Positions 1-47,140 of a stretch of 64,000 nucleotides of DNA are shown one piece after another. How positions within the stretch are numbered: position 1 is the first letter of the stretch; every line of letters begins with the position of its first letter. The position numbers and the translations under genes were made by a program. This stretch comes from Lepraria neglecta (taxonomy: Eukaryota > Ascomycota > Lecanoromycetes > Lecanorales > Stereocaulaceae): assembly GCA_033220425.1 (NCBI GenBank), contig CM065651.1, forward strand, positions 620,001 through 684,000. The letters run 5' to 3'. The notes beneath the pieces were generated by a model that worked only from the letters and a program-made list of their open reading frames with translations, did no database searches and was not told where the DNA came from.

Positions 1-1785
1 CTTTTTACAGCAAAAGTTGTCAGATAACGCTTGGGAACGTTGCTGTAAGAGCTGCAATAAATGTGATCCAGAAAGAGACTCTCCTGATCTGCTTGAAAAG
101 CTTGGTCATATGGTCTACCCCATCGATCGGAATTGTCCGATCCGCAGCCATCGTGATCCGATGTCAATTCAGGAACCACTCTCATCCGTACGGCGTATGG
201 AACGTCGCTCATGAGCTGGCAGTTGAGTTGCACTATTCGACGCATACGTGCCGAATCAATCTGATAATACTTTGACGGTAAGATGCTACGCACGCAGTCC
301 TCAATTGCCTTGGCATCCGCTGCTTTGCGATCTGGGTATTTTCGACGGAGCCCACGGTATCCACTCTCTGACGCGAGAGACGAGAGCTCGTGCCACCATC
401 GTTGCTGTATTGTCGGATATAGACTGTTCTGCTTGGCAACATCTTTTCGGGGGGCCTGGCCGTCCATCGCGGGAAAGTGGCGAAGACTGAACAGAAAGAC
501 CTGTCGGTACGATAGCCAAAAAGAGTCACCGGACGCTAACGTTCGATCCTCGAAGGTAAATTCACTGGTCTGCACCTTTAAACCTGCCTGTCTGTTGTGG
601 AGAGTATGGAATTGTTGCGACATCGACCCTTTACCATTGTTTGGTAGAAGCTGCTTCAGAATTCTGACAGCAGGCTCCAGCCATTTCGAATTTTCGATAC
701 ACACCTTTATTGAGAAGATCATATGCTCCACCGAGCAGATGCGATTGAAGATCTCCGATCGCCGGCTGTCATCCTTGACCGCGGGGAGGATATCGCCCGC
801 CAGCATTCGCATCCGGACGAACGCACGGTCTTCCGTCGATCGGAAAGGACACCGGCCTTGCAGGATAGCGACCGTATTGGCGTCAAGTTGAAGTTGATTA
901 TTTTTCCTAGCCCCAAGGATGTGAGTCCACGTCTTCTTGACTACGCGTAAGCAGCGGGCTACCTCCTTCAATCTCTGTTAGAAGCGAATAGACAATGGAG
1001 GGGAGTCTCAAACCTCCGGGCAATGTAAGTTCAGTAGTCGAGGGAACGTTCCTATTTGTACAGCCGGCCACAAACCTGCGAACGGTGTCAGATCGTCCAG
1101 GCTTTCTAGGAACTTCCCCGGCAATGCCTCCAATCGTAGGAGACACCCCTGCTTGCTTTTTGAAAGCCTGGCGAGCCATTTATCTCTTCTCGAAGAGTCG
1201 TCCGCTAGTGTGGAAAATCGTATCTGCCGAACTATGTCCCCATCAAACCATCTGGAAGCATTGGAGTCTTGTTCTCGCAATTCGTTCCTCACAAGGTCGT
1301 TGAGGTCTGTAAGTGTTAACAAAAGTGCCAGGGAATCGCAGGCTGAGTTTCACACCATCAGAGTAGAGGTCCACAATCCACCATCTGTCGCCCCCTTTGA
1401 GAAACTTACGTGCCGCTTCCAGGCGGTGTCTCCCGCGTAGGACTCGTAAAGGAGACTCCGGGATTAACCGTTGCGGCTCTTCGAAGACACCGCCGCCGAC
1501 CCCGCCAGAGGGACAGGCTTGGGGCAGAGCGGAACGAGATATTAGCGCAAGCATGTGGTTTTCCGGCTCTCGAGGCCGGCAGCCTTCCTTATGAAACACA
1601 TCCAGCAACCTCGCAACGTTCTTGCCGTCGCGTTGCCTTGGATTTTTGGGAAGCTGTTCATGCTCGAGTTTGTCGAGAGGTATTTCGAACGATCCGCAGA
1701 AGGTCCTGCTCTTCTCTCGAAATACCTGCAGGTCATTAGCCGATGGTTTGTCCATCATGACACGAGAAATACTCCGAGAATTCAC
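1..1785 (-). CDS. DUF3723 family protein, 3' end beyond the left edge
   Basis: Partial gene reading leftward off the window. ATG at 1785; exon 1 1785-1356, intron 1355-1307, exon 2 1306-1014, proposed 39-base intron 1013-975, exon 3 974 to the edge, open throughout. Family-like segments in order: a Pro-Glu-Asn 'EPENHMLALI' block, 'RWWIVDLYSD', 'WLARLSKSKQ', 'KTWTHILGAR', 'RAFVRMRMLAGDILPAVKD', 'FSLRHFPAMDGQAPRKDV' and 'SLFLDHIY'. These match the fungal DUF3723 family as I know it; its biochemical role is not established. DUF3723 (d37) is a recurrent cargo gene of Starship elements, and this copy runs in the same direction as the DUF3435 captain at 16.5-19.3 kb. The second intron is very short and its CTAAC sits almost on the acceptor, so a small frameshift there is an alternative. 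Family confidence is high, exon detail moderate. Confidence 0.85.
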
Positions 1786-2188
1786 ATCCGGCCTTCAGAG
1801 GTCCTTATATATACACCCAGCCAATTTTGGAATTTAAAGACATCAAGAAGTGGATGTATCAAGGCCCAGCCGCAATGGTCTCTCCTACCGTAACCTGTAT
1901 ACTGGTGCTCTCCCCACGATCCGTCCTTGCTCCTGAGCCTCCGTCCCCTTCAACTTCTGCCACCCTCACTTGAAACCGTTCTTCAAACGCTGCGAAAGTT
2001 TTACAGTTCTAGCTATGGTTTTATTCCGGAAATTCGGAGTAGCCGAAAACGGGTATCTACCGTCATTAAAGGCTGCCGTCGGAGATGAGGATATAAGAGC
2101 CCCCGGTGCGGTCAAAAAGCTTTTACACCCTGTACCCTTCACTTCACTCGGATTTTCCTACGACGCCGCATTGCAATATCCGGTTAAA

Positions 2189-4104
2189 ATGACCAAGTCC
2201 ATTCCAAAGGAGATGGACGTGACACAGTTCTATGCTATTGCCGCAGGCGGCTGTATCACTCTTTTATTCATTGTTCATACTTTGATCCGACTGAGTTGGC
2301 TTTTCAAACCGTGTGACGCATTACTGCGGAAGTATTTTCTATATCCGCTGCTCCTCCGACGGCATCGTCTTTTGGGGCCTTGGAATCGTGCCGAGGTGGC
2401 CTTCGAGCTGATCTACTTCGCAGCCAACGCCTTTTGTGCTTGCTTCAAGGTGTCTACTGCCAGCGACGTGGCTACCCGGGCGGGACATTTGTCGCTAGTT
2501 AACATGGTGCCGGCCTATTTTGGATTGCACTTGAGCTTTGTTTGCACCTTACTCGGCGTTTCGCTGCCCACGTACCGGCTTTTCCATGCGTCAACGGGAA
2601 CGATGTCTATCATCCTTGGTGTACTTCATGCCGTCATCAACGCCGCAAGTAAGCCGAGCCTGGGCACGATGGGGTCGGGGCAGGTTTTCAAGATGATTGT
2701 TGGTTGCTGTGCTCCCGACGAATTTCATCCTGCTGACCTTCGCGTTAGGCGGTCCTTTCTATGGTCTTGCTGCGTCTGCTTTCGTCGCGCTGGTTTCGCC
2801 GGATTTCGTATGAGTTTTCCCTTCGCTGTCATCAGGGGTTGGCCTTTATTGTGGCTTACGCCCTGTGGAGACATGTTCCGTCAAGCTCAAAGGTGCCACG
2901 CGCATATCTACTGGCCTCTGGTGGTACCTTTCTGATCACGCTTGTGATGCAGTGCTTCACCGTTCTGTATAGAAATTCCAGCCTCCACCGTGGCTACTCC
3001 AGAGCTTTGGTTGCGAGACAAAACGGCGCTGTGAGAATGACAATCTTCACCCCCCACCCGTGGAAAGTCAAGGCCGGACAACACGTCAACGTTTGGATTC
3101 CATCCGTCAGCGTATGGTCCTTCCTGCAAAGCCACCCTTTCACTATTGCATCTTGGAGCGAGGGCGAAAACCCTAGCCTAGATTTCTTGATAGAACCGAG
3201 GGATGGCTTCACACGGAAGCTATTTGACCGCGCCCCCGAATATAAAAAAGGAAATGTCTCTGTAAGAGGAATGGAGGAAGGCCATGAACCTCAATCAAAC
3301 GCCGACGATATGGACAAGAGACCCTTCGGTGATGCGAGAAACTCCCAAGGTAGCTCGGAACCGTCTGATCTCCACATGGCTTTCTTTAGTGGGCCACACT
3401 GCTCGGGCGCACCCATTGGTAATTACGGAAAAGTTCTGATGATAGCCACTGGGTTCGGAATCGCGGCACAATTGCCCTTCCTGAAAGAGCTAATCCAAGG
3501 ATTCAATCGATCAGAGGTTCGCACGCGCAACATTCACTTGATATGGCAATTGAATGATCTAGGTGAGCATCCCAGGCCTCTCAACACCTGAAGGTATTTG
3601 ACGTTGGCAGGTGATGAGCACCCCGCCATTGAGCTGCTCGACAGAGCTTTAAAGGAAGATACCTTAGATCATGGTTATGTAAGTATAGAACCTAAGGGGA
3701 GCGCCCTTTCTTAGTTTGCTAAGCTAGTGGTACTAGATGCTTCAGGTGTGGCTATTCTTTAGAGATGGAAGACTGGACCCCAGCCCACAGCATGCCGGAA
3801 AGCATCAACGCGCCCTTTACCACAACGGCGTGATAGATCTTCGGCGTTTTCTACTTGATCAAGTGGGGCCACGTTCGGAAATGGATAGAGACAATATTTT
3901 AGTCACGGGTAAGTCCGCAGAGCTCTCGGGGAGAGCCTTATATTGACCATCGATACAGTTTCCGCAAGTGAGCAAATTCGAGACGAGTTGCGAGACCTCA
4001 TTCAGCCACACCTGGGAGTAAGACTATTAGAACTTGACTATCAGCCAGCCGAGAGGAGACGGGGCTTGTGGCCTTTTACATGGTCTCGCAATGTGAAACA
4101 GTAG
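2189..4104 (+). CDS. Ferric-reductase-like transmembrane oxidoreductase (FRE)
   Basis: Five exons: 2189-2698, 2749-3562, 3611-3678, 3746-3908, 3959-4104, giving about 566 aa. The N half is hydrophobic with several membrane segments and His-containing helices ('GVLHAVIN', 'CHQGLAFIVAYALWRH') of the kind that bind b-type haem in ferric reductases. Then come an FAD-binding motif 'HPFTIAS' and a nucleotide-binding stretch 'VLMIATGFGIAAQLPFLKEL' close to the C-terminal NADPH domain. In this family electrons pass from NADPH through FAD and haem across the membrane to extracellular Fe(III) or Cu(II). The start at 2189 (AAAATG) puts a normal short tail before the first membrane helix. An in-frame ATG at 1970 would add 73 residues without recognisable features. 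The first intron has donor GTTGGT and branch CTGAC. FRE genes are a recurrent Starship cargo class, which fits the captain downstream. Substrate is not deducible. Confidence 0.88.
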
Positions 4105-4324
4105 CTCTAGATATTATTAGATAAGCAATCTTAGAAAATTCAATCAAACTTGTTGTGTTGAGATCAAGGCGAGATCCAAGTTTGGCTGCTTCTGGCCCCT
4201 CCTTTAGTTCACTTAGGCTGCTCTTTGGTCCACTTTTGGCTGCAGGGGGGCTCCAGAAGTAGGAGTCCAGGAAATCTGCAGTGCTATATAACTCTCTTTG
4301 GACCCAACTTCGAGTCTTCAGATC

Positions 4325-5440
4325 ATGCCTGAACAAAAGAGACCTATCACTCAGCTTTGGGACTTTTCGCCAACCGTGGCCGGAGATCCATTGCAAAACA
4401 ACTCGGTGACGCCGCCAGACACTCAACCTCTGAAGAAGCTCGCTCCAGTAGTTCAATCCAAATTGTCTCCACCCGATCCAACATCTTACCAAAAAGATGG
4501 GACCAGCACTTCAAATTTTGAAACCAAGAGTATCGAGCAGCCCATTGTGGTTACCATGCAAGGAGCGTATGACGAAATTATGGCTGTCGACCAGGCTGGG
4601 CTGGCCATGATCGGGTCAAATAACAACGAGGAGCCAAGCTTAGTAGCAATCAAAAGGATCAAGAAAGCTGATGAAAGCCCGGTTAGCCGGATAACACCTT
4701 TTACTAGCGACCATCTCGTCCAGATCAGAAACATGTATGAGGATGACGATGATGTTGTCATCGTTTATGAAACAATGGATGTCACCCTCCGACAACTTAC
4801 TGGCATACTGCAAGGCCCGTTGAAAGCCTTCCAAATCGCAGCAATCTGCACGGAGGTCAGCCAACCTCAGTCACGCTGCTTGGAATTTACTCACCGTGGT
4901 GAAACAGCTGGTGGACGGTCTCTTATACCTGCATAGGGAGCTTGCCCACTATCACGGGGCGCTCAGCTGCGGTACAATACTTCTTGATCTTGACGGAAGA
5001 GTGAAAATCGGTAAGTCCCTTCTCGAAAGGAAACGGCCGTTGCTGATGGTCTCTAGCCAATATCGGTGAGTCATTCATCAAGAATAGAAGGCTCAACCCG
5101 GAAAGCGAAAGGAACGACATCCGCAGCGTCGGATCAGTCATGATGGAGTTAATGGAGCCCGAAACTTTCATTCTTGAACCTCATTCCACCGTGCTCAAGA
5201 ATGCGGATGTGTGGAAGGACGGCTTCGGTATCAAGGATTTCCTGGCCGCTACGCAGCATAGTCCCTTAGAAACATTGAAAAATGTAAGTTTCCGAACCTG
5301 AACTGGTCCCATCTGTCGGCCTGACAAGAACCAAGCACGACTTTCTCCCCAAAAAGCCCATTTGGAAGTGCCTTAAACCTCATGTCTTCTGTGCAGTGAG
5401 AGCAGCCAACCTCGGCTGCGATAAACTCTCACTCCCATAG
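4325..5440 (+). CDS. Protein-kinase-like protein, probable pseudokinase
   Basis: Four exons 4325-4855, 4908-5010, 5057-5283, 5336-5440 give about 321 aa; all junctions are GT-AG and keep frame. The N-terminal 80 residues are Pro/Ser/Thr-rich and look disordered. After that a kinase-like fold is visible: 'LVAIKRIKK' carries the beta-3 lysine, 'VVIVYETMDVTLRQL' the hinge, 'LVDGLLYLHRELAHYHGAL' the helix before the catalytic loop, and 'GTILLDLDGRVKIANIG' the activation-loop start. The catalytic HRD is replaced (HYHG) and DFG is replaced (ANI), so phosphotransfer is unlikely. The C lobe ends 'TLKNHDFLPKKPIWKCL'. Degenerate kinase-like genes of this layout are common in filamentous fungi, often in accessory DNA. 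An ATG at 4298 would add nine residues. The gene follows the FRE gene by about 220 bases on the same strand; a functional link is not shown. Confidence 0.72.
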
Positions 5441-6059
5441 ATTGCTGGAAGAGTGTCCATTCATGTGGCGAGCGTTATCTTGCACCATTAAGCGTTTGAG
5501 GCAGAATAGACTTTACAATAGAAATCATTTTAGTAGAATTACTTGTTACTTTATAGCTCGTTCCCTTGCTACCGGCCGTTGCGCGCTAATAGGAAACCAT
5601 CGATGAAATAATTCCTGAAGTACTAGATACCGAGGGAGGGTTGACTGGGGAGGTAAGCGAGATACTGTAGAGGACAGCACAGCCAGCACCGTACTGAGGG
5701 AGCTGGGATACTCGCTAGGGGGATACTCACGGGTTATTCAAAAGTTGCGGGCTCGTGGGGGAAGTACGGATGCACAAGGACCGTTCTATAATTTGCTAAA
5801 TCAGCAGCAAACGTTCCTATGATGGCGGCCATTCGTTGCTCATTTCTAGGGGCATCCAGACATCGCAGCTATCAGCGGCATCCTTTCTTCTTGCACCCAC
5901 AGCAGCATCCATAATCGAAGGCGCATGAGTATGTTTAAAAAGCACCCCCTTTCTCTAATTTCACGATTCTTTGGTATTATCATTGGAAATCGAAAACCTA
6001 TTGGCACTTTGTCTACCCAGCCCATATACTGCTTATTGTACCCGCAAGAGTCTACAGCG
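5441..6059. other. Intergenic, no supported gene
   Basis: No coding exon in this stretch has both usable splice signals and a recognisable protein. It should contain the 3' UTR of the pseudokinase gene and the promoter of the PLAC8 gene. I see no repeat or mobile-element ends. Confidence 0.5.
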
Positions 6060-6529
6060 ATGTCTAAATCATGGACTCGTCCACTCTTTGACTGCTTCAA
6101 TCCTATGGGATTATGTGAGCAGTATGAATCGTATTGCAGAGGCGGAACGCTTACCATAACTTCAGGTTGCTTGTCCTTTTGGTGTCCATGCATCCTCTAC
6201 GGCAAAACCCATGGGCCTAAAAGCGTAAAAGCCCCTCCCCCAGATTCACACCCGTTTGAGTCGTTCCCTAATCCTTTCCCTAGGGTGCTTTTTGTTGCAT
6301 TCTCTCTTGCTGCAGTCTTCAACCTTTCCTGCAATGTATCAGCCGCGGCGGCATACGCCACAAGTACGGTATCGATGGTAACCCATGCTATGACTGCCTT
6401 ACCTCATGGTGCTGTTCTTGCTGTGTATTGGTACAGGAGGCAAAGGAGTTGGAGGAGCAGAAGGAGCGCTCATCGGGTAACAAACAGGGGTATACCAGTC
6501 AGCCAGAAATGAGTTATGCGCCTCGGTAG
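6060..6529 (+). CDS. PLAC8 family Cys-rich protein
   Basis: Three exons 6060-6114, 6166-6224, 6284-6529 (introns of 51 and 59 bases with clear GTGAGC/CAG and GTAAAA...CTAAT...TAG signals) give a 119-aa protein. The unspliced frame hides the family; once spliced, the PLAC8 signature appears: 'LFDCF' near the start, 'CCLSFWCPCILYGKTHG', then 'GGIRHKYGIDG', 'DCLTSWCCSC' and a Glu/Lys-rich tail 'QEAKELEEQKERS'. PLAC8 proteins are small, Cys-rich and usually membrane associated; in fungi and plants related members are linked to metal (cadmium) resistance, calcium handling or size control. No member-specific role can be assigned here. The length fits the family. An upstream ATG at 5925 would add 45 residues lacking family features, so 6060 is preferred. 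Confidence 0.85.
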
Positions 6530-6574
6530 AATGTGCAGGGGTGCTTTTACCTGGGATGTTCAGTGGCGGTGATC

Positions 6575-6901
6575 TTAAGAAGCGCGACCGAACTTGGCTT
6601 TCTTTAGGGAGACTAGACGGTCTTCTATTATCTGCACTTTTCGCGAAGTCATGATGCAAGCATAGATGTATTTGTTGTAGAAAGCGGTTAGTTGGTAGCA
6701 TCTGCATGTTTCAACGCTGTACAATTGAAAGCCGAAGGTAGACGTCTTAGGACCGCGAGCGGTAGATATCAAGCTTAAAGGAAATATGGACACATGATAC
6801 TCATCAGGGGAGACTTCATCTTTGAATCGAAGCCACTTGAGGCGTCTTTGACTCATCACCGAAGATTCTGACCAATAGGCCGGTGTCGTTGAATGGCGCA
6901 A
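6575..6901 (-). CDS. Small hypothetical protein
   Basis: An unspliced 108-aa reading frame convergent with the PLAC8 gene, with its stop only about 45 bases from the PLAC8 stop. The composition is protein-like, with a mixed hydrophobic middle and a basic C-terminal end ('RLVSLKKAKFGRAS'), but no domain, signal peptide or membrane segment is recognised. It could be a real small gene, an exon of one, or an antisense coincidence. Confidence 0.25.
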   Translation of the reverse strand: MRHSTTPAYWSESSVMSQRRLKWLRFKDEVSPDEYHVSIFPLSLISTARGPKTSTFGFQLYSVETCRCYQLTAFYNKYIYACIMTSRKVQIIEDRLVSLKKAKFGRAS

Positions 6902-7270
6902 GGGTTCGGTCTCAGAAGCAGAGCTTTTTGGTTTCTAGTGACAGTTTTTGCAGCAACAAAACTTAATGCCCAATTGTTACAACTGTTTATGTAAAACTTT
7001 CACACTATTGGTTTATTAGAAATTTTATGAACATCCTGTATCATAAATCTCAAAGTACTTTTTATTTAGTTGTGTGTGTGTGTGATTGAAGTTCATTGAT
7101 TTTTGCCAAGTCCGCGAGGATAGCTCCGCTATGCGTTACCTAGTACTTGCGAAAAGGAGGCAGAGATGCCTGCAAGTCATCTTGTGCGTTAGCGACAGGA
7201 TACCGATTCAACGGGGCGGGAAGACAGTACCGGCAAGAGTGCTGGATTTGACGCGAGACTGTTCGACTTG
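6902..7270. other. Intergenic AT-rich spacer with TG repeat
   Basis: AT-rich spacer with a short (TG)n run around 7070-7084. No gene is supported. It probably holds the downstream region of the minus-strand ankyrin gene. Confidence 0.4.
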
Positions 7271-8308
7271 TCACTCCGCGCACGCTTGAGACGGCAAACC
7301 TCCTCCATGGCTGCGCCGACACTCTGTGATCTGCGCAGATTTAGGTGGCCGCCCTGTGTCGGCTCCTTCCTCCTGAGCCGCCCTTAGAGGCGACGAGTCT
7401 GTCCCGGTCTCGCCCGAACTCGAGCTCCTCACCCTTTTTCGAGACTTCAACAAGCCGCACCGGAAGTCGTGGACGATTCTTACAGATGGCAACACACCAG
7501 CATTTCGTAAAAAGTCTGCAAGAACTGCGCTCAAGGAGGATGTAGGAAGTGGTGATACTCCAGCTGCAGGCTCGACTCGACTCCATTGGTTGTTGCTAAA
7601 AACGAGGTCGGTCGATGCGAGATTGCTTGCAGTCATCCCGAAATAGTCCATTATATCGGGATCGATGCGGGCTCCTAAGAGCTGGTCGAAGACACTATCG
7701 TGTCCTCCAATGGCAGCATAATGCAGCGCGCTCCGGTTGAGGAACGTTGTGCATGATACATCAGCGCCAGCATTGAGGAGCAGTTCAACGATGCTACCGT
7801 TCCCTTTCTCGGCCGCAAAATGCAGTGCCTTCTTGAATTGCTCCCCGTATCGATCGACGTTGAAGCCCCTCTTCCTCAAAACTTTGCCGTGAGCTCGCCT
7901 TGTATTATTCACAGAAATCTTTGCTCTCAAAAGTCTCCGGGCCTCATCTTCTGGTCCAGGAGTAATTGATGTGTTAGGGTCTGCACCGGCTTTCAGAAGC
8001 TCTCGCACGACGATTCCACGTCCCTCGTGTACGGCGCATAGCAAAGCGGTCTCATTCTTTTTATTTCGAATAGTAACGTCGACGGCCTTTTCAAGGAGCA
8101 GGCACAAGAGTTGTATAGAACCTCCAGCAGCCAAGTAATGTAGTACCGTATTCCCGTCATCATCCTGGTTCGAAAGAGCGGCTCCTTCCTCTAATAGCGA
8201 AACGTCAAAGTTATGGGCAGTTATCATCGAGATCCAATCCTTTGGTCCAAGGTATTCTGCAATAAGGAGATGGATATCCATTGGAAGGTTAGGAGGAACC
8301 ATGATCAA
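7271..8308 (-). CDS. Ankyrin-repeat protein with F-box-like N-terminus
   Basis: Single-exon 345-aa frame starting at 8308. The first 30 residues ('LPMDIHLLIAEYLGPKDWISM') have the Leu-Pro-x-(D/E)-(I/V) plus Leu spacing of an F-box-like or short helical capping motif. Ankyrin repeats follow: 'DDDGNTVLHYLAAGGSIQLL', 'NKKNETALLCAVHEGRGIVV...LLKAGADPN', 'FKKALHFAAEKGNGSIVELL' and 'LNRSALHYAAIGGHDSVFDQL'. The C-terminal third is Ser/Arg-rich and probably disordered. Ankyrin repeats bind other proteins; the partner is unknown. Such genes are frequent in fungal accessory regions. The frame stays open to a stop at 7271, although the last ~60 residues are low in conservation cues and an intron near the end cannot be excluded. 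Confidence 0.75.
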   Translation of the reverse strand: MIMVPPNLPMDIHLLIAEYLGPKDWISMITAHNFDVSLLEEGAALSNQDDDGNTVLHYLAAGGSIQLLCLLLEKAVDVTIRNKKNETALLCAVHEGRGIVVRELLKAGADPNTSITPGPEDEARRLLRAKISVNNTRRAHGKVLRKRGFNVDRYGEQFKKALHFAAEKGNGSIVELLLNAGADVSCTTFLNRSALHYAAIGGHDSVFDQLLGARIDPDIMDYFGMTASNLASTDLVFSNNQWSRVEPAAGVSPLPTSSLSAVLADFLRNAGVLPSVRIVHDFRCGLLKSRKRVRSSSSGETGTDSSPLRAAQEEGADTGRPPKSAQITECRRSHGGGLPSQACAE

Positions 8309-8655
8309 GGTTGAACTGCAGAGGTGATGTTAAACAACGTTAGTTGAGGGCAGAAAGGGGGGTGGCGAGCAGCTTTAGTAGGCAAAAGGCGGGGCCGGCG
8401 GGTTTAAAAACGCGGGGGCAACCGAGCCCGAGGCAGCAGCCAGTTCAGGCTCCGGCATGCTGCGCCCCTTGCACTGCCCCGTGTAAATCACCGGGCAGAT
8501 GTCTCCATTTTTACACTGCCTCATATCAGGCAGTAGCTTCCGGAAGGAGTATAGTCCACCCTGGATCACCTTCCTTAGTCACCTAAGTCGCGCGACCATA
8601 GGCTGGGCAACCTTGAAGCAATCGACACTAGACTTCGTAAAGTTCCGCGTTGTTG
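8309..8655. other. Intergenic, no supported gene
   Basis: GC-rich spacer between the divergent ankyrin gene and the minisatellite. Short frames exist on both strands, but none resembles a known protein. It should contain the ankyrin-gene promoter. Confidence 0.4.
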
Positions 8656-8659
8656 CTCC

Positions 8660-9352
8660 TCCGCCGGGGGAGTACACGTCCAAAAGTTGAGCGTTCGCCG
8701 GAGAGAGCACTTGCTGGGGGAGCACTCGCTGGGGGAGTACTCCCACGTCCAAAAGTTGAGGGTTCGCGGGGGAGTACTCGCCGGGGGAGCACTTGTTGGG
8801 GGAGTACTCGCTGGGGGAGTACTCCAGACGTCCAAAAGTTGAGGGTTCGCGGGGGGGAGTACTCACCGAGGGAGTACTCCACGAGTCTCAAGACCAAATA
8901 TGTCTCAAGACAGCCGGGGGAGTACTGTCACGTCCAAAAGTTGAGGGTTCGCCGGAGGAAGCACTTGCTGGGGGAGCACTCGCTGGGGGAGTACTCCCCA
9001 CGTCCAAAAGTTGAGGGTTCGCGGGGGGAGTACTCACCGAGGGAGTACTCCACGAGTCTCAAGACCAAATATGTCTCAAGACAGCCGGGGGAGTACTGTC
9101 ACGTCCAAAAGTTGAGGGTTCGCCGGAGAGAGCACTCGCTGGGGGAGCACTTGCTGGGAGAGCACTCGATGGGGAGTACTCCAGACGTCCAAAAGTTGAG
9201 GGTTTGCGGGGGGAAGTACTCGCTGGGGGAGTACTCGCTGGGGGAGCACCCCACGAGGCTCCAAAAACTGAGGGACCAGAGGGAGCACTCGAGCTAATCC
9301 AGAAGTTGAGGGCCTTGCTAGGGGAGTACTCCCACGAGGCTCCAAAAAAACT
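8660..9352. repeat. G-rich compound minisatellite
   Basis: Dense repetition of two modules. One is an ACGTCCAAAAGTTGAGGG-type segment: seven near-exact copies starting about 8675, 8737, 8827, 8930, 9000, 9101 and 9185, then looser copies to 9350. The other is runs of CTGGGGGAG(C/T)ACTCG. A segment beginning ACGAGTCTCAAGACC recurs at 8881 and 9052, giving a higher-order unit of 171 bp. The module GGGAGTACTCCC is a perfect 12-bp palindrome. Repeated GGGGG runs lie on the plus strand, so G-quadruplex formation is possible. Several frames on both strands stay open through the array because the unit lacks stops; I do not call those as genes. Confidence 0.9.
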
Positions 9353-9391
9353 GTTCGCTAATTCGGCGGAATTGCAAACGCGAGCTTAGCT

Positions 9392-10219
9392 ATGGAGTTG
9401 TCCATGTTCAGGGTTGTGTTCCAGGACATACCTGAGTGTAGAACAGCGATCATACGCTGCCTCACGGGCGGAAACCTAATGGCACTTAGAAAGGCGATCG
9501 GGTTCTGGCTATCGGGAAATGAAAAGAAAGCACACTTAAGCTTGCTGTGGGATGTATTCGAGGACATGAACTGGACTAAGGATGCAGATAGAGTCACAAT
9601 GATGGGACGAGGCCTCGACTTTCGCCGAGCCGAAGCACAGATCCGAGACAGTGCTCTGATCCACTGTAAAAAGATGGTCCCTTTTATAGTCATGATTCGA
9701 GCTCCTGTCGATTACGAGACACTGGTCCCATGGACCAAGCAGGTCTTGTCAAACGTCATGTGCTCTACTAGGATGGATGTCGTGGAAGGCGATAAACGTG
9801 AAGACAGATGGGATTCGAAGTCCATTGCCACCATCGAAGGGTTCGCAGCTGGCATTGAGATATCTATTCCAATCACGGTCTTAACTCAGGAGACACCTCA
9901 AGACCAGCTCGGAACTACAACCATAGACTGGACTGTCGCCATGTCCATTTTCAAGCCTACGCTTAAGAATGTGAAACGGATCGCAATTACAAAAGTAGAG
10001 TGGAACAAGGTTCAATACGAGACGGCGGCTGTTATTTCGTACAAGACCGTCGATACATTACGCTTCATCATCAGCGGCCCCCCATTTATGACCAATGTCT
10101 CCCTCATACTGAGATCGCCCTCAGTATGCATGCGAGTGGTAAACGGATACGACAGATCCTTATCGTACGATGAAGAGTGGGCAGCTCTAAAACTCCGGAA
10201 CGGACGCGAGGGATGGTAG
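9392..10219 (+). CDS. Hypothetical protein, 275 aa
   Basis: Uninterrupted 275-aa frame beginning 40 bases after the minisatellite. The N-terminal 75 residues look like a helical, F-box-like or ankyrin-cap region ('RTAIIRCLTGGNLMALRKAI', 'FWLSGNEKKAHLSLLWDVFEDM'). The rest is mixed alpha/beta with no recognised domain. No signal peptide or membrane segment is seen. The long open frame and good composition support a real gene, but I do not recognise the family. Its promoter would lie in or next to the minisatellite. Confidence 0.6.
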   Translation: MELSMFRVVFQDIPECRTAIIRCLTGGNLMALRKAIGFWLSGNEKKAHLSLLWDVFEDMNWTKDADRVTMMGRGLDFRRAEAQIRDSALIHCKKMVPFIVMIRAPVDYETLVPWTKQVLSNVMCSTRMDVVEGDKREDRWDSKSIATIEGFAAGIEISIPITVLTQETPQDQLGTTTIDWTVAMSIFKPTLKNVKRIAITKVEWNKVQYETAAVISYKTVDTLRFIISGPPFMTNVSLILRSPSVCMRVVNGYDRSLSYDEEWAALKLRNGREGW

Positions 10220-10656: not shown

Positions 10657-11304
10657 TTACTCATTATACTCTGATTCGCTGTCCTCATCATACTCATCGT
10701 CATTCATATCTTCTTCCATGTCTTCATCGTCATCATCATCGCTGTCTTCACTCTCCACCGCAAATTCACTTCCATCATCGCCCTTACACCCTAGTACATT
10801 ATTTTTGTCGTTATTGCCGTTCTCAAATTGAGCTGCATCGTCGTTCTCGCCTTCGATTTTCACAAGCTGGTATATATGTGCCAGCAATATATTCTCGATG
10901 GCGTTGCAGTAGATTGACGGCGCTCGGTTTCTAGCCACCTTCACTGCCACCTCCAACCAATCGACTTGATCCAGGAGGGAGTCTAACACCCTCTGAAGTT
11001 CCGTCGACGAGATATCCAAAGACGGAGTCGGCGAAGAATGGCACAGACCAGAATTTGGAGGGGCGTTGAGTCTTGGCCTTCGCTCCGCTTCATGTTCCGT
11101 CGTGTGGACCAGGTGATCCCATGTCTCAAGTGAAGAAGGTGACCAATCCTCTGTCTCTGGGACCGAGGGGTAAGGAGTGAGCGGGTAAGGACGACGAGAG
11201 TAAGCGTTCGTGAAGCTTTTGTTACCATGCGAGTCCTCCTGGGACAAGTGAGATGGAATTTGAAGATATTGAGTTGGCATGTGTGTCATATCTGGAGGGT
11301 TCAT
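10657..11304 (-). CDS. Hypothetical protein with acidic C-terminal tail
   Basis: Single-exon 215-aa frame. Residues 1-100 are Pro/Ser/Thr-rich and probably disordered. A short helical region around residues 100-150 ('LQRVLDSLLDQVDWLEVAVKVARNR') is the only likely folded part. The tail is a long Asp/Glu run with Ser ('SEDSDDDDDEDMEEDM'), typical of nuclear or chromatin-associated proteins in general but not diagnostic. No family recognised. The acidic run is partly encoded by a GAT/GAA-rich tract that could also arise by slippage. Confidence 0.5.
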   Translation of the reverse strand: MNPPDMTHMPTQYLQIPSHLSQEDSHGNKSFTNAYSRRPYPLTPYPSVPETEDWSPSSLETWDHLVHTTEHEAERRPRLNAPPNSGLCHSSPTPSLDISSTELQRVLDSLLDQVDWLEVAVKVARNRAPSIYCNAIENILLAHIYQLVKIEGENDDAAQFENGNNDKNNVLGCKGDDGSEFAVESEDSDDDDDEDMEEDMNDDEYDEDSESEYNE

Positions 11305-11838
11305 GAGTATAGTAAAGAACCTGCTGGGCTCCTTTTTGGAACTTCTGCTGGCTGCTGTGAAGACTGACTGGGCTTCAGAGATCTAGCTACGTTTTAATAG
11401 ACATCTACGCCCTCCAATAATGGCGGCCCACCCCTGCAAGTTACAATCCTCTGAATATGACGTCCTGCTCCAGATTTGGCCGCTGACTGCCTCAAATTCT
11501 GGCCTAGTCACGCCGCTCCAGCATATACTGCCCGGTGGAAAAAGCGAACGCCGTTCAGCACTAATTGGGACGCCGTATATACTCGGCCAGTATTCGAAAT
11601 AAGATCGATGGGCCGATAGGGTGTTGTGATTCCTAACGGGTTTCTGGAAGCTACACCATTCACTACAGCCACATCGGCAACGCGAGCAGAAGTTGCAAAA
11701 CGTCCATTGCAGCAAACGAATTGAGAGATCTAACGTCCTACTGGCTAAACACCCTCGCTCATCTTCCTTCCAAGCCACAAACAGCCTCGAGCCTCTCCAT
11801 CGCTCCACCAGAATTCCTGAACTCGCGCAAACAAGGCT
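11305..11838. other. Intergenic, no supported gene
   Basis: Frames of up to 141 codons exist on the minus strand (11383-11808), but the product is unusually rich in Cys, Trp and Arg with no family likeness. I treat the stretch as spacer upstream of the acidic-protein gene. Confidence 0.35.
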
Positions 11839-12842
11839 TCAGAGCAAATCTTCGATGTGGACCACAACCATCATCTCCCGTATCTTAGCCATCCTCTCGG
11901 GAGCCGTCTTCGCGACCCGAGCGCTGCGCCTGCGGTTGATGCGCTCATTTCGCGCCTGGAAAGAAGACCGAACCCAACTTATGTCGTCGATGTCGCTCCG
12001 GCGAGTCCAACACAATTTCCACCGAATCAGATAGATGACTTTGCCTTCAAATTCGCCTCTCTGTATGGGCGTGTCGACATGAGACCCAAGATCGCCATCA
12101 CAATCTGCTCGGGAAGCACGACGGTGTATCTTCTCGCTCCACTGGTGTGATTGGTACCGCTGAAGCTTGGTCTCTAGTGCCGTCTCTGCTCCACTGATGT
12201 TGAAGTCGCTGGGAAGCATCCATCGATCGACACTCTGAAGAAGCCATTCCTCTTCCCCGTGTTGGACGCAGAATCTAGATTCGTGCGCAGCGATGTGGTC
12301 CCACTTGCCATCCTGTGGAACGCCAACATCGTCGAAGTTCTGGACAAACTTCTCGACATTTGGAATGGTCGCGAGCTGTGAGGTGGTATCGTGGGGAATG
12401 GCGTCGCCGAGACTACCAGTCTTCGCGCCAGCCATCTCCATTGGCGGGGGTGAAAGTGGCTGAGGAGAGGTGGAACCGTTCTGGAGGCTTGCCTCCTCAC
12501 CTACTCCTTGTTAGCGCAAACCTTGCACCAAATTCCGGGAAGGAACTTTCACTCACCTCCAGTCCAAGGTCCTGGGCCTTCATCACATCCAGTCAGAAGG
12601 GCGTGGCTGTCAAGATTGGATCCTCCTGGCAGATTCACCATCGGAGCCCATATTCGACCGACTCCGTGGTCCACGTGAGCTGCGTGGGCTGGCAAAGAGA
12701 AGCGACCAGCACGTTGTCTGCTTTTCTGATGAGGTGGTTGAGCAGCCCATTCTGCAGGCTCTGCAAGGAGAACAGCTCCAGAACGGAGGCGACGCGAGTG
12801 TTCAGTGACATACTGGCGGCGTTGTCGGCGAGTAATGGCCAT
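11839..12842 (-). CDS. Hypothetical protein with chromo-like C-terminal segment
   Basis: Two exons, 12842-12557 and 12500-11839, joined across a 56-base intron (GTGAGT donor, GCTAAC branch, TAG acceptor), give about 315 aa. The N-terminal 95 residues are basic ('MAITRRQRRQYVTEHSRRLR'). The middle is acidic and unremarkable. Near residues 245-280 a stretch 'KVIYLIRWKLCWTRRSDID' followed by 'WVRSSF' and an Arg-rich run resembles the beta-strand/Trp pattern of chromo or chromo-shadow-like domains; this likeness is by eye and weak. An upstream alternative start at 12941 is rejected because a TATAAA box (12913-12918 on this strand) lies between it and 12842. Function unknown; a nuclear role is only suggested. 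Confidence 0.55.
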
Positions 12843-12912
12843 TGTGAACGAAGGTTGAGTGAATGTCTGAGGAGAAAATAGAAGAAGGAGGGAAGGTGGG
12901 TAGGACGTCAGC

Positions 12913-12918
12913 TTTATA
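12913..12918 (-). promoter_or_regulatory. TATA box of the chromo-like gene
   Basis: TATAAA on the minus strand, about 70 bases upstream of the chosen ATG at 12842. This spacing suits a fungal TATA promoter with a short leader and supports that start. Confidence 0.45.
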
Positions 12919-12942
12919 GGCGTCACTCGACCCTCAGCCACC

Positions 12943-13429
12943 TTGTCAATGCTACAGCAGGGGGTTGCATGGCCTTCTTGGTCTCATCCTTCCCTGCGCC
13001 ATACCTCGGTGGCAATACTCGGCCCGGATGCTTCTCGTTCCCGATTACTGGTCCTGCTTAAGGTAACCCCGGAGGGCTTTGCTGCCTGGCTCTCCGCCCA
13101 TTTCCATGGTCACCTGCATGCGCACGTACCTGATGCTGCTCGAGATCGTGGTCACAATCGAGGAGTGGGCGACGGTCCTGGCCCTGGGCGGGATACCGGC
13201 CACGGTGACGAGGCGGTGAAGAACAGCCCCGTGACCGTATTCGTGTCGGTGGTCCTGCAGCGCGCGCGCAATTGGTAGAGGCCACGCCCACGGTCGAGCA
13301 CAAGTGAGGAGAGCGAGTAGGTTGAGATAGCTCTTGGGACGTGTATGTATACGTTGCTCCCAGCTCTAGTTGGAGACCTTCATTATGCCACGTCACGTAT
13401 AAGGGTGTTTTGTCATAAATGCAAGACGT
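12943..13429. other. Intergenic GC-rich stretch, no supported gene
   Basis: Overlapping frames are open on both strands because GC is high. A minus-strand frame around 13060-13250 reads like plausible protein but has no start context or family likeness, so it is not called. Confidence 0.3.
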
Positions 13430-14580
13430 CTAGTCATGCGAGTTACTCGTGCACTTCCCAGTAATGCAAATCCACTCCCCAGCGCAGTTATCATATGACT
13501 GGCACGGATCACCAATACATCCGTTCCAGGATGCACAGCCGGCGTACGAGGCTGCCATTTGTTGCGTGTATGTCATGCCTGGCATCCATATTCTTCCTTT
13601 TGAGCTTCCTACGTTAACGGCTGGTGCTGGGGATAGGGTTGGTTTTGAGACTGTTGTCACGAGTGTAGTTGGTATAGGAGGTAAAGATGCAGGTGCAGGT
13701 GATAGCGAGGGAGACGGGGAGGCGACGGGCATCACTTCAGCTTTGATCTGCTGAGGTTTGTTCTGCCCTAGCTGGTAGCCCGCTGGAGGGTTAATGACTT
13801 GTGGAGACGGCGTCACGGGCGTAGTAGTTGGGAATGTAGTGCTTGGGGTTAAGCTCGGTGATAGAGCTAGAGCTGAAGACCCGCCACCGGGTGAGGAGGA
13901 GCCACCTGAGCAGAGGCCGCTGGTGTTAGGGTTGGGGAACACCATACCGGCAGATGGACTGTTGTGGCAGGTGCTGCCGTCCCAGAGAGCGCCGTTGTTG
14001 ACTGGGAGGTTAGTTGGAGGATTGCGAATGATGGTTTGATCTTCAACTGCGCCGAAGTCGTCTTCACAGGTTGTCTGAACAGCTCCACCATTGGTGTCAG
14101 AGCCGATCCAGAGGTCAATGTGGGTCAATCCGTTGGCAAGGTCGGTGATTGGAAAGGGGTTAGTTTGCCAAACCCAGCGTGCTATAATAGATGAGACTTA
14201 CTGCATTGCAGGCAATGATCGTTATATCGGAAGTATTTTTGAAGGTAGGGGAGATAGATGATCTCACATTCCTTAAAGTTGGTGTTGGTCAGGGCTGTTG
14301 CAAAAGTCTCTGGGTCTTCATAGGTTCCACTGCCTGTAGATCGTCAGGATATCTTCTTGGGCGTGAAGATTGAGATTTGACAGGCCACACCTCCAGCAAT
14401 TCCACTATTGTTCCCCTGTCCAGTTGGAGAGGTGCCACTGCACCCAAAAGATGTCGTATCGCTATTACCATCTGGGTATCCATAGAAGGTGAATTTCACG
14501 CCGGTTTCGGCGGTACAGGTTTGCGAGTAAACGAATTGAAATAGTAAGGAGTGGATAACGGCAATAAGAAAGAGTGACAT
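13430..14580 (-). CDS. Secreted DPBB-like (RlpA/expansin-type) protein with Ser/Pro linker and Cys-rich tail
   Basis: Exon 1 14580-14391, intron 14390-14334, exon 2 14333-14202, then a problematic junction, then exon 3 to the stop at 13430. The first 19 residues are a signal peptide ('FLIAVIHSLLFQFVYSQ'). The mature N-terminus 'TGVKFTFYGYPD', 'IAGGSGTYEDPETFATA', 'ECEIIYLPYLQKYFR', 'DHCLQC' and 'LTHIDLWIGSD' match a fungal family of secreted double-psi beta-barrel proteins. A Pro/Ser/Thr-rich, likely O-glycosylated linker of about 80 residues follows, then a tail with six cysteines ('CASWNGCIGDPC', 'CAGEWICITGKC'). The enzyme activity, if any, is unknown; wall binding is plausible. At exon 2/3 only a 20-base GT-AG span or a 56-base span ending in CA restores frame, so a noncanonical site or pseudogene is possible. 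Confidence 0.75.
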
Positions 14581-14714
14581 CTTGCCAGAAGATCAGATAT
14601 ATGGTCAGAGAATGAGTGAATGAATGACTGCCAGCGGAGGGGCTTGGGAAGGATAGGAAAGACGGGAAAAAGAGAAAAGAAAGGAGCCACGAGGCAATGA
14701 GGGCTATTATTAGA

Positions 14715-14935
14715 AGGGGGCTGGCCCAGAATTGGCGGTAGGGTGCCAGAATTGGCGGGGAGGGGCCACAATTAGTGGGGGGTGCCAGAATTGGCGGGGA
14801 GGGCCACAATTAGCGGGGGGATGCCCAAAATTGGCGGTAGGGTGCCAGAATTGGCGGGGAGGGCCACAACTTGCCGGAGGGTGCCCAATTAGCGGTGGTT
14901 TGCCCGGAACTGGTGGGGAGGCCTAGAATTGAAGC
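14715..14935. repeat. G-rich minisatellite upstream of the DPBB gene
   Basis: Imperfect 15-17 bp units alternating GGTGCCAGAATTGGCGGGG and GGCCACAATTAGCGGGG, about 12 in all. The G-rich strand is the plus strand. It starts about 135 bases upstream of the minus-strand DPBB gene ATG, that is, in its promoter. The CCA-AA-TTG-GGGG layout recalls the 8.66-9.35 kb array. Confidence 0.85.
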
Positions 14936-15093
14936 TGGTGAGCCAGTGCGGGGGGTTGAACCACCCAAACCGAATGAGAGTCTTGGACATGGTTTTTTCA
15001 ATAGAAACAAGCTTCGGACATCTGATCTACTCTCTCGATTAGCCCGCCTTCACGAAGACTCAAGCTCCGCGTACCTCCTCTCCGCATATAGAA

Positions 15094-15831
15094 ATGGCTA
15101 CACTCCGGTCAAGTAACTTAGACCGTGCGGCTAATAGAACAAAGTGCCGACGGAAATTATCCGAACACATCTGTAAGGCCCAGCTATCCAAGGGAGAATA
15201 TATACAGCTAACGAAGTCACGAAGTGACCAAGCTTGGAATCTCAATCGAGCCGGTAGAAGTACGGCTGATCACAAGCGCTGATGATCCGTATACCTGGCA
15301 AATACTGCCAGAGAAAGAGCACCTCTTCAAGAAACATTTAAGCAAGCATTCTATCGGCGCTTACAAAGAATTATGTCGAGAAGTTGGTGTATCATTTGAA
15401 GCTGTTCTGGCACCGGAGTCAAGCAACGCTGCGGAGTGGAAATTGCTCGAGGAAAGACGAGGAGCGAGAGTAGGTGGACTTTTCTATTGCTCAGCCATGA
15501 CTAACGGAATAAACAGGATACTTCTAGCCCTAAGATCAGCTTCACCGCAGTAATCTCTCAATTAAAGAGGGAGAAGCTCGAAATGGCCACTGAGCTGAAC
15601 AAATTACATGATCAGGCGACAAAAGTGACCGAATTAAAGCATCTGGCTGAAGAAGAAGCGGCTCGATTAAGGTCAATAATACAAGCAGCTGAGGTAGACA
15701 AGCAAATGCTGCAGCAAGAAGTGCAAAACCTAACAGGTATGGTGGAATACTTTAGAAACACAATAGCAAACTCTGTACATGAGGTCCTAAAAAGACTCAA
15801 GCTTGACCTGAGTCTTTATACCAGTGGGTAG
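15094..15831 (+). CDS. Hypothetical coiled-coil protein, 212 aa
   Basis: Three exons 15094-15172, 15225-15469, 15517-15831. The 52- and 47-base introns have GTAAGG/CTAAC/AAG and GTAGGT/CTAAC/CAG signals and keep frame. The N-terminus is basic ('RAANRTKCRRKLSEH'). The middle ('DDPYTWQILPEKEHLFKKHL') is a mixed alpha/beta segment. Residues about 130-195 ('QLKREKLEMATELNKLHDQ', 'LAEEEAARLRSIIQAAE') form a strong heptad-patterned coiled coil. No family is recognised. A dimeric scaffold or DNA-associated protein is possible but not shown. It is the first gene downstream of the captain on the inner side of the putative Starship. Confidence 0.6.
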
Positions 15832-16515
15832 CATGCTGGTTGGAAGGTTCCATTAAAATATGCGAGATGTTTGTCAGATAAGATGCAAAGCTGTATGAGC
15901 TGAAGGCTAGCGGTATCAAATCACAATCTTGTTGAGCCTTGCCTAAGGACCGAGACGTAGACTATCGGTGACCCAGGCACCAGACCAGTCGTTCTGGAAC
16001 AGGCGTAAGGTCTAAGGTAAAGCAGTTTGGAGCCATAATACGAAATTCTGAAACGCTTCTAGATGTGATTCAAGATGGCTCTATTGTTTGGATTCTCTGG
16101 TCCAGGAGCACCATCGAGATGATGCGGGGAGCCGGTTGTCACCCATGCAGAACGGACAAAAAGCGGGACGGAAGAGTGTATGGCAGTGGGTGATAGATCC
16201 GCATCGCTTCGAAGAAATCGACTCTGCAGGAGGAAACGAGAATTGTTCAAAATAAACTATGTGAAACAACTGACAGGATCTCATTATGACCTCGCACTAA
16301 TCTAGGTCATATCAACAAAACTGCACAATTCGAATACAATTGGCAAGTGGTAAATAAAGCTATGGAACATTATTGATAGACGAAGTAGAGACCACAGCTC
16401 CAGGACACACAAGCGAAAATGATAGATAAATGAACAATGTGGGATGATGTTTGCTCTACTAGCGCTGTAGACATGTGAAATAGGGTGAAGACTTTACTCG
16501 TCGTGAAGGCGAGGG
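15832..16515. other. Intergenic between coiled-coil gene and captain 3' end
   Basis: Convergent spacer. Small minus-strand frames (16059-16284, 16370-16500) carry no family likeness; the last may be captain 3' UTR. No repeat is seen. Confidence 0.4.
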
Positions 16516-19333
16516 TCAAGCTTGTCGAATATGTCGGTGCACACAGACGATGCCGGCGTCTCTGTGGCATCTGTAATCTCGTCCGTGCCGGAGGTGTTTT
16601 GATGGAGACGAACGTTCCGAGCTGATCGAGGGAGTTGTCGATGTTCCAGTGCCGTATTGGCCACATAGCTTTGTCGTCTCATGCACAAACTCATATGTAG
16701 ATTGGGGCCACGAATCCAGCTTGACGTCCGGGTCGTAGTCCTTGGTCTTTCTTAACTTCTTTCTTCGAGCCGGTATGGTTTCCACTTCACTTCCGGATCT
16801 ACGCCTTTTGGTCCCTTTGGTGAGCTCGATGCAATGGATATCCTGGAGGTGAAATTTCATCTTCAGAACGGATGGGAAGGCGTCGACGCATTTCGGTCTC
16901 GGATGTGGGCACTTGGTAGCTTTGCAGCCGTCCAGCCCCTCGATGTGTCTGTCGATGTGTGCTTTCCATTTTTCTCGGTCGAGGAATTGCTGCATCCGAG
17001 TGGGAGCTGGAAGTGCGGTATCCCCTAGACAGAAAAGACAATATCCAGGGCAAGCAAGGGTTCCGCCGTAAACGAAAGGATTGCACTGGATGGGCAGTGT
17101 TTCCGGCCTCCGTAAGTGGTCCTGACAGTGATCGTTCCACTCTTCCTTGCCGAGAATCCACTCACTGCAGTCGAAGCATAACTCGGCGAAGTCATAGGTG
17201 GTCAGAAGCTTCTTTTTGTAGCAACCGTAGATATGCCTCCATCTCTCGGCCGCCGGTTTACTATGGAGAAAGCGCCTTATCAGTCGCTTTCTTTGTCAGG
17301 GGAAGGTTGAGAGGTGGAAACGTCACGAACCTATCAGACTCCAGCTTGTGGTCGGCCATCAGGCAAGTGCACTTTTCCGGCTCCAAGCCCGGGCGGAAGG
17401 GAACCTCGGCATCCTGTTGGCAGAGTGCGATCATATCACGGAGGACGGATCGACCTTCATCACTCCGGATTGGAGCGACGAGGAACAGACTCGATGCCAA
17501 CCGGTCTCGTTCGGGCATGAGACGGCGAACGCGGTGGAATTGGGTGCGGTGGTAGCCCGTCAAGTCGGCGTCGTCGGCGTTAGAGAGAAGCTTGCTCGGT
17601 TGGAGCTTCTGGCACTTGAGAAGTTCTTCAGAAACCAGCTTTCGCTTCTCTGCCATCAGCGCCCCTCGACGGTCTTTTGCAGCTGGGTCGGTCTTCGCCT
17701 CCGGCGCCAGAGCCTCAATCTCATCTTCAAGGGTGGTAAACCCCGGGCTGTTCTCCAACTTGTGCTGCTCTCTGGCCGGCAGTGTCTGTAGTAGTTCCGG
17801 ATTGCGATGGAGGGTCAGCCCACGAAAGCGATCGTTCACGATACTGCGAAGCTTTCCATCGAAATAACCCCCTTGGAGGTCGGTTCCGGCATTGTTAGGC
17901 ATGTAGGAATCGCCAAAGGTCCGCTCGTCTTTATGTCCACCATGCTTCATCCTCTGAGCCGTCGAATAGAGCTTGTCTGCAGCCCAGATGAGCCCGGGAG
18001 ATCAGGTGAATCGAGGAAAAAGTGAGAACATACCGATGAGGTACAAGCCTTCAGCCCGGAAGTCGTGGATGGTCGGGGGACGAAGATATCCAGCGCGGAC
18101 TCCCAACTCCCTGAGACGCCGGCTGAATGTGTCGGCCTTCTCCATCTCCCCATTGGAGATTACCTGGAAAAAGGGCTTGCTAAGCACACTTTCGTTTTGC
18201 CGGAGGTGATACATCTCGTCTTCCGGAGGCTCGATTTCCAGGAGTTCTTCCATGGTGCTGTAGTCCCGGAATGCATGATCCGCGATGGCTCTGGCGAGCA
18301 TCGTGAGCACTGGATTGCAAAAAAGTGGTCGAGGCTCTAATCCCTCGTGGACTGAGTGTTCCGGCCTGTTCATCAGATCAATCGTCAGTAAAGCTGTGAC
18401 GACTCGGATATTTTGGATGGGTGGACGCAAACCGTTTCTCCGGTGTCAATGTCATGTTCTTGGCGTCTCGCACGACTTGAATAGCGAACTCGGCTTTCCC
18501 GTGTTCATTGCGAAAGACTCCAAAGGTCATATCCTGAACGAGATAATCTTAGTTGACAGGATCCTCACCTCATTCTGTGGACTGTACTTACACGGTAATA
18601 GAGGCCGCGGCCGGAGCCGGCGCGGCAGGTGGACTCGATATACTCACCCACCCTTGCTGAAGTGAACACGTAGAGCTGGATCTTCGCCCATGTGTCCACT
18701 CGGATCCGTGGCTTGTCGTATATCTGCCAGTCCTTCTCCCAAAGCTGCGTTCCCAGGTGTATGAAGTGGTTGGTGGTGCCGTAGCACCTGAGTCGCTTTC
18801 TGTGAGCAAGGCCAAGCTCCTCTCGCAGGGGGGTCTTGATGAACTGTATAATTATCAGCCTCGATACTGAGAGCACAAAAGCCACGGAGTACCAACGTTT
18901 GTGACGGACTGTGTCGTTTCGGGAGGTATGAGGGAAGCATGCCTCCGCCAGCCGGCCGTGAAGTCTTTCCAATATTGGAGGACAGTTTTTTCACCAGCCG
19001 TGGGATCATCGTAAATGCCATCGATCCCGTACGCAATCTCCCTCACAAAGTCCTTTAAGGTTTCCAAGTCGTATGGGTCAGCGCCAGGGTGGCTCTGTGC
19101 GTATCTGTTTGAAGTAGGATGGTGTCAGGTAAATGGGCTTCTGGAGAAAAGGGCAAGGGGCCAGGGCGGTAGACCTACCCATTCCATAGGTCCAGCGACC
19201 GTGCGTAGTTTTTCTCCGTCTTGGGTTGAAGGGTTTTCTTGACTGCAGTGCCATTGACGATGGCTTTGTTGATGTTAGAACCCTTCTCGCGAGCTCGCTG
19301 GAAGAAATCCTCTGGGGACTTCTTCTTCGGCAT
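16516..19333 (-). CDS. DUF3435 tyrosine recombinase, Starship 'captain'
   Basis: About seven exons, roughly 815 aa, no break found after splicing. Start ATG 19333 ('MPKKKSPEDFFQRAREKG'). The DUF3435 landmarks occur in order: 'LQPKTEKNYARSLDLW', 'LETLKDFVREIAYGIDGI', 'VLQYWKDFTAGWRR', 'PLREELGLAHRKR', 'VFTSARVGEYIESTCR' (box-I arginine), 'FRNEHGKAEFAIQVVRDAK', 'RPRPLFCNPV'-type block, 'TIHDFRAEGLYLIDKLYS' (H-x-x-R box II), 'KHGGHKDERTFGDSYMPN' (final His and probable nucleophilic Tyr), 'LRSIVNDRFRGLTLHRNPEL'. The C-terminal part carries Cys/His knuckles ('CDPERD'-like absent here; 'CFDCSEWI', 'CLFCLGDT', 'CPHPRPKCVDAF...H....H'). Captains cut and rejoin the ends of Starship elements and are the first gene inside one end, reading inward. 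Here that places the element to the left. Assignment to the family is very strong; exact splice sites were read by eye. Confidence 0.93.
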
Positions 19334-20687
19334 TGCCGACAACAGGTGGAGCAGGTTGGACGAAGGGAAGAGCACAACGAAGAGGTGGGGAAAAGGAGAG
19401 ATAGACAAGGAGAGAGTGCCCAGGTATCGTAGAGGTATGTCTTGCGAGAAGCAAAGAAGGCGCACTGAAGGCGTACTGCGAGATGAATAGCAGAACGACG
19501 TGAAAGACAGGTAGGCAGGAAGAAACAGAAAGAACGAGGGCAGCAGACGATGCTCTATGCGAGACCGTCGGGGGGAAGGCATGGCGTAGTCTTTGCATCC
19601 AGTTTTGCAACCCAGGGAGCCAGCTCTGGCCCTACTCCATCTTGCTGGGGTTCGCCGTCTAAAGTTGACGAGTTCGAGCTGGCAGGATGCACTAAGAGTC
19701 GCCAGAATAGGACGTCAAGAGAGTAGGAGGGAGCAGTGCCTGAGCCGTGGGTGTACAAAGGTGAGCAGACGTGAGCAGCGGGTGAGGCGAAGGTGCTTGG
19801 TGGGTGAGCAGAGCGGCGGGAGCTGACTAACCCGACTCAGCGGGCAAAGACATTTTGATGGGCCACCCTACCGAAGTAGACTGACGAGGTGATCCACGCT
19901 AGCTGCCTCGTTACCGGAGCCATCCGTATTTATTACTGGTGCAAGAATGCCGAGCTTCTAACAGATGCGAGTGACCCCAATGTGAACAAATGGCGTACGT
20001 CCATCTTAGCTCAATCCCTTAACCTACACCCTTGCTGGATTGTTTCGACCAAGAAAATATAACATGGAGCCTACACTTGATCTTTAATCTGCCTTGGGCC
20101 TTGATGAGGGGCCTGGCTTGCAGGGGCAAGCCAATTCGCGTCTTGCATATTCGCTCGTGTCCCCACTTCTAGAAAATTCGTCGAGTTTTGCAAGTAGTGC
20201 TGACTGGTTCGGTAACAGAATATGATACGCTCGTGCAGATTTGGGTGTTTCTCGAGATGAATGTGTCGGTGATCGCCGCGTGTCTTCCAACACTGGCTCC
20301 CATCCTTACTCTATCGGTCTATGCTCGACTTTGGGGCAGGATCTACTCCTTCTCATCGTTCCGTCACCACGACTCCACCCAGAAGCAGCTTGGAATGAAG
20401 CAGAGGCACACGAATAGCCACCACCATAAGAGGCACATTGATATAACAGATATCGAAATGGCGCGTATCTTAACAGACTATGGAGAGCAAGCAACGCAGT
20501 AAATCGCCCTTTCTGTTGATACAAATGGTCATATCGCGCCAAATTCATGGCCCTATATAGAGTAGCAAGACGAATGTGATGTTATCTTCGGTTTTTGTAA
20601 AAATTTGATCCTTTTTTCCATCCTGAGCTCCTCTTTATTTCGGGGAAAATTTCCCATTTACTCCGTAAATACCCGAGATACCGTACT
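19334..20687. other. Captain upstream region; candidate captain-side end of the Starship
   Basis: No gene is supported: frames at 19339-19758 and 20084-20502 on either strand have no family likeness. The stretch should contain the captain promoter and, by family rule, the element's captain-side terminus. Base composition is ordinary to about 20.58 kb, then becomes AT-rich, with a 13-bp palindrome GGGAAAATTTCCC near 20.65 kb, followed by an LTR at 20688. I cannot place the terminus to the base because the other end is outside the window. Confidence 0.45.
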
Positions 20688-47003: not shown

Positions 47004-47140
47004 TCTGCTCACCTCCCACCCTGTATCTACTCTTCTTTCTCACCTTAGAGTCTTCAGTCTTCGTTATGTGCAATTGAGGTGTGAATCCATCACCTGTTGA
47101 TCGGTATCATTCATCTTTGACCTTCGTCACGTATTTAACG

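Follow-up and report, generated by a model that had tools for sequence, protein, structure and literature searches.

Starships are giant transposons that are set apart by their gene cargo from Cryptons, and the recombinases of the two groups are described as very distantly related (PMC12134995). In Sanctuary, one described Starship, the captain, a DUF3435 tyrosine recombinase, is the first gene and reads inward, and an FRE (ferric reductase) accessory gene is present; the accessory families named in the same source are NLR, PLP, FRE, and DUF3723 (PMC12506042). Tardis h1 is a Starship of Aspergillus fumigatus with the predicted target TACGGAGTAG, and its direct repeat of 9-11 bp is reported to be highly conserved and shared with other Eurotiomycetes (PMC12153272). 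Here, a stretch of 64,000 nucleotides from Lepraria neglecta (assembly GCA_033220425.1, contig CM065651.1, positions 620,001 to 684,000), referred to as the window, was analyzed. The segment at its left is proposed to be the 5' part of a Starship, with a probability of about 0.8. The kind of element is already known; the segment probably adds a newly found example whose other end would lie beyond the window.

The captain gene and the genes inward of it

The captain gene forms a single open frame, from an ATG at 19333 to a stop at 16494, once seven introns are spliced out (Table 1). These introns are 43-74 bp each, have GT..AG ends, and were predicted from the DNA alone, without RNA reads. PF11917 (DUF3435) matches residues 169-455 of the captain (E=2.1e-13; 50.5 bits, cut-off 25.8) and is the sole Pfam family in the model up to E=0.1. 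Cryptons are also tyrosine recombinase transposons, but the recombinase here matches DUF3435 and gene cargo is present.

The putative catalytic residues of the captain, assigned by motif and spacing without a structure, are, in order, R185, K230, H339, R342, and Y374. The spacing is similar to that of Sanctuary (PMC12506042): H339 and Y374 are separated by 35 residues, compared with 35 in the captain HhpA (Y381/Y416) and 34 in Sanctuary, while the R-K and R-H distances are 45 versus 48 and 154 versus 164. The captain residue that aligns with Cre H289 is a His, as in Cre, whereas it is a Tyr in HhpA and Sanctuary (PMC12506042). The captain is 805 aa long and that of Sanctuary 786 aa (PMC12506042). 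When residues 1-388 were compared with PDB sequences, nothing matched up to E=10. Pattern matches to captain relatives in viral contigs (5) and in prokaryote genome contigs (20) were followed up by tblastn, and none was confirmed. A tblastn search of the window for a degraded second captain gave chance-level matches only (E 1.7, 2.8, and 5.9).

The captain is the outermost open reading frame (ORF) of at least 120 aa, since the only ORF of that size from there up to 20687 holds its own first exon. Two of the four Starship accessory families, FRE and DUF3723, are found approximately 12 kb or more inward of it. The spliced DUF3723 model matches PF12520 (E=4.3e-89) in two stretches, the best covering profile positions 185-499 of 508, and its first exon alone matches profile positions 1-100. 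In the spliced FRE model, Ferric_reduct (3.3e-8) and FAD_binding_8 (6.1e-12) are above their cut-offs. NAD_binding_6 falls just below its cut-off in this model (21.5 against 22.2 bits) and passes in the single ORF (23.4 bits); trial splices of the last FRE exons hit stop codons. NLR and PLP were not seen among the 20 ORFs scanned, out of 140 stop-to-stop ORFs of at least 60 aa in 1-16.5 kb, and at this sampling more gene families may have escaped.

A first-pass annotation of this DNA had proposed one end of a Starship, with an unbroken DUF3435 recombinase that is the first gene inside the right edge and reads leftward, and with FRE and DUF3723 inward of it. The captain's identity, position, and direction were borne out by the spliced model, its Pfam match, and its place as the outermost larger ORF, read on the minus strand, and both accessory families were recovered by Pfam in spliced models. 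The right edge that it gave, 20687, did not stand, because an LTR (long terminal repeat) begins at 20688. Position 20687 is the last base before this LTR and thus marks the start of a retroelement, without a demonstrated Starship end.

In the proposed arrangement, the captain would be the first gene within the element at its right-hand (5') end and would read inward. Using Tyr374, it would break and rejoin DNA at the element ends and so mobilize the whole block. The genes left of the captain, FRE and DUF3723 among them, would be accessory genes and cargo, and the remainder of the element, including its other end, would lie left of the window. The span from the proposed edge leftward to the end of the window is at least 20.6 kb, provided no boundary lies between; the size threshold for Starships is 15 kb (PMC12153272, PMC12134995).

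The candidate 5' edge

Here too, the nine-base core of the Tardis h1 site, TACGGAGTA, is found upstream of a captain (PMC12153272). It is separated from the captain ATG by 1325 bp, and the LTR starts 20 bp farther out. The tenth base next to it differs from that of TACGGAGTAG, and a single copy was seen at the proposed element; the likeness to Tardis h1 is one of motif (PMC12153272). The chances that the 5' edge is at TACGGAGTA are judged to be about even, and Tardis is the best guess at the family because the proposed edge is this motif. The distance from captain to proposed edge is 1.3 kb, versus ~350 bp in Sanctuary, whose direct repeat is unlike the candidate (PMC12506042).

Chance rates were estimated from 2000 first-order Markov simulations, which are not exact shuffles, of the 1354-bp interval right of the captain. 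TACGGAGTA turns up in 0.25% of the simulated intervals. It occurs twice in the whole window, and 100 dinucleotide-preserving shuffles of the window had a mean of 0.55 copies, with two or more in 7 of 100.

The edge may instead lie elsewhere, either nearer to the captain or beyond 20688 on the right, in which case the LTR would have inserted into the element, and this is given somewhat less than an even chance. A Hephaestus-like TTAC(N7)A motif occurs four times in the interval, a count reached by 10% of simulated intervals, and loose Gnosis and Lamia motifs occur once each, as expected by chance. The signature of repeat-induced point mutation (RIP) also becomes clear only from 20851. Against these stands the nine-base Tardis core, which is much rarer by chance.

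Starships that target 5S rRNA genes (Osiris, Enterprise family) were considered and set aside, as a search of the window against Rfam gave no match at gathering thresholds; such a search could overlook a short 5S remnant.

The RIP contrast and the LTR

The window contains only A, C, G, and T, and its RIP signature was followed in 1-kb windows. Of the 21 windows in 1-21000, 20 have a negative composite RIP index; the exception is 8001-9000, which holds part of a tandem array. The index is positive throughout the flank that follows (Table 1) and negative again in 17 of 17 windows of 47001-64000. In a 500-bp profile, the index is +0.17 at 19351-19850 and negative from there to 20850, with a value near zero at 20601-21100; it is clearly positive from 20851 onward, and G+C is below 0.40 from 21351. 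The Starship would have inserted beside or into this repeat-rich, RIP-marked DNA. The intron-rich genes, the RIP signatures, and the DUF3435 and DUF3723 genes would fit a filamentous ascomycete.

The repeat at 20688 opens with TGTCACGGTGCC and is common to 40256 and 41563, with a mutated copy at ~30400. Positions 40256-41733 hold a complete small LTR element with 171-bp LTRs (40256-40426 and 41563-41733) and the 5-bp target duplication CTTAG on both sides. Its LTRs begin TGTCAC and its 3' LTR ends GTAACA. The copy at 20688-20850 ends as the 40-kb LTRs do, and a similar leader sequence comes next. A pattern search for a 3' LTR with a matching target duplication did not find one for the LTR at 20688.

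Weighing the evidence

Several observations weigh against the Starship reading or its proposed edge. DUF3435 genes are reported to be solo more often than they are captains (PMC12134995). K230 was chosen by spacing from five lysines between R185 and H339. The Tardis motif was sought only after the published site was known, and it is over-represented in A. fumigatus, possibly as a transcription-factor site (PMC12153272); for these two reasons, TACGGAGTA is taken as moderate evidence. When four specific published motifs are considered together, 3.15% of simulated intervals hold one or more of them. The ten-base TACGGAGTAG was not found in the 1354-bp interval, and the second TACGGAGTA of the window, at 35075, sits within a repeat (35041-35310). 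The RIP switch falls just outside the proposed edge and not at the motif, since the index is clearly positive only from 20851.

The search for a repeat right of 19333, proposed in the first-pass annotation, produced a candidate at 20659-20667 and no partner for it. Left of 20659, the window does not contain TACGGAGTA again as an exact copy. For the 25 bases just inside the motif, no inverted partner stands out within 1-19000; the best match has 8 mismatches and is equalled by 9 of 100 shuffled queries. Terminal inverted repeats are reported for 18 of 20 A. fumigatus Starships (PMC12153272). No inverted repeats of at least 40 bases with a 14-base seed were found in the window, and a more sensitive blastn search found weaker ones, none of which pairs the proposed end with sequence in the left part. 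The lack of a left copy and of an inverted partner would follow from an other end beyond the window, but it would follow just as well if the edge idea is wrong.

The segment may also be a derelict Starship fragment that kept its captain end, lost its other end, and is immobile. This is rather unlikely, and it overlaps with the favored reading of a Starship 5' part, so the odds given for the alternatives are not exclusive. The 3' end is not seen in the window and an LTR begins 20 bp from the proposed edge, as such a fragment might have it, but no stop interrupts the visible parts of the captain and DUF3723 frames, and the block carries almost no RIP signature. That a solo DUF3435 gene lies by chance near FRE and DUF3723 in an ordinary accessory region is very unlikely: the distance of these two genes from the captain is in its favor, but two of four accessory families fall inside 20 kb, the captain is outermost and reads inward, and the RIP signature changes beside it.

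Other features of the window

Table 1. Features of the 64-kb window in order of position.
Feature	Position	Strand	Remarks
DUF3723 accessory gene	1..1758	-	PF12520; continues past left window edge
FRE (ferric reductase) accessory gene	1937..4110, approximate	+	Ferric_reduct, FAD_binding_8, NAD_binding_6; start and 3' exons uncertain
Protein-kinase-like gene	4325..5400, approximate	+	PF00069 E=2.2e-8, 34.3 bits against 31.7 (spliced model)
PLAC8-like ORF	5925..6509	+	PF04749 E=2.2e-5, 25.8 bits, under curated cut-off 34.4
Ankyrin-repeat gene	7274..8308	-	PF00023 E=3.5e-25
Tandem repeat array in putative cargo	8662..9274	+	Periods 15 to 171
Two ORFs, cysteine-containing, possibly secreted protein (by eye)	13433..14592	-	No Pfam match above cut-off
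Coiled-coil-like ORF	15505-15828		Pfam matches below cut-off only
Putative captain, DUF3435 tyrosine recombinase	16494..19333	-	8 predicted exons, 805 aa
Leader, captain to proposed edge	19334..20658	.	Only ORF >=120 aa holds captain first exon
Proposed edge TACGGAGTA, a candidate 5' direct repeat / target site	20659..20667	- (captain strand)	9/10 bases of Tardis target site
LTR, TGTCAC...GTAACA	20688..20850	+	Similar to LTRs 40256-40426 and 41563-41733; abuts proposed Starship side
RIP-marked, repeat-rich flank	21001..47000	.	Composite RIP index positive in 26/26 1-kb windows
Host genes LTV1, PfkB kinase, EST1	51543..56987	.	Pfam E=2.9e-99, 2.4e-23, 8.4e-43

The kinase-like gene is perhaps a pseudokinase, because HRD and DFG motifs were not seen by eye. 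The best Pfam match of the two ORFs at 13433-14592 is DUF7107 (16.8 bits against a cut-off of 24.6), and the remaining scanned ORFs between the captain and FRE have no Pfam match above cut-off. The array at 8662-9274 is GC-rich with GTCCAAAAGTTGAGGGTTCGC-type units, and a lone diverged unit lies 3 kb off, at 5720-5763. A G-rich, strand-asymmetric minisatellite with units near CCAGAATTGGCGGGGGGTG occupies 14714-14923.

Within the RIP-marked flank, a repeat of ~240-280 bp is present in four copies (22300-22581, 28050-28290, 35041-35310, and 45828-46099). GTAACA is at or near the right end of three of the four, and the copies are probably LTRs of another retroelement. Those at 22 kb and 45 kb carry a one-base variant of TACGGAGTA. 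The small LTR element at 40256-41733 has no ORF of at least 130 aa and has tandem arrays at 41143-41396. Close to where the RIP-marked block ends on the right, 46809-46994 is an imperfect palindrome of ~186 bp that is 77% identical to its own reverse complement. Farther right, a 39-bp tandem repeat of ~3 copies at 47526-47636 lies within an ORF, and a TPR ORF is nearby at 50480-50938. No tRNA was found in the window.

Implications

Starships carry whole gene blocks within and between fungi. At this locus, the open captain together with the candidate edge is a concrete, testable insertion. It is an unlikely but conceivable extension that the segment belongs to a Tardis-type Starship that is active or arrived recently, with a captain that recognizes the near-palindromic TAC-GGA-GTA; the RIP-free block would then have arrived after RIP hit the neighboring repeats, and horizontal transfer may have brought it. 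Should the Tardis-like site be correct, the locus would be a further example of a target that was described in A. fumigatus and is called conserved among other Eurotiomycetes (PMC12153272).
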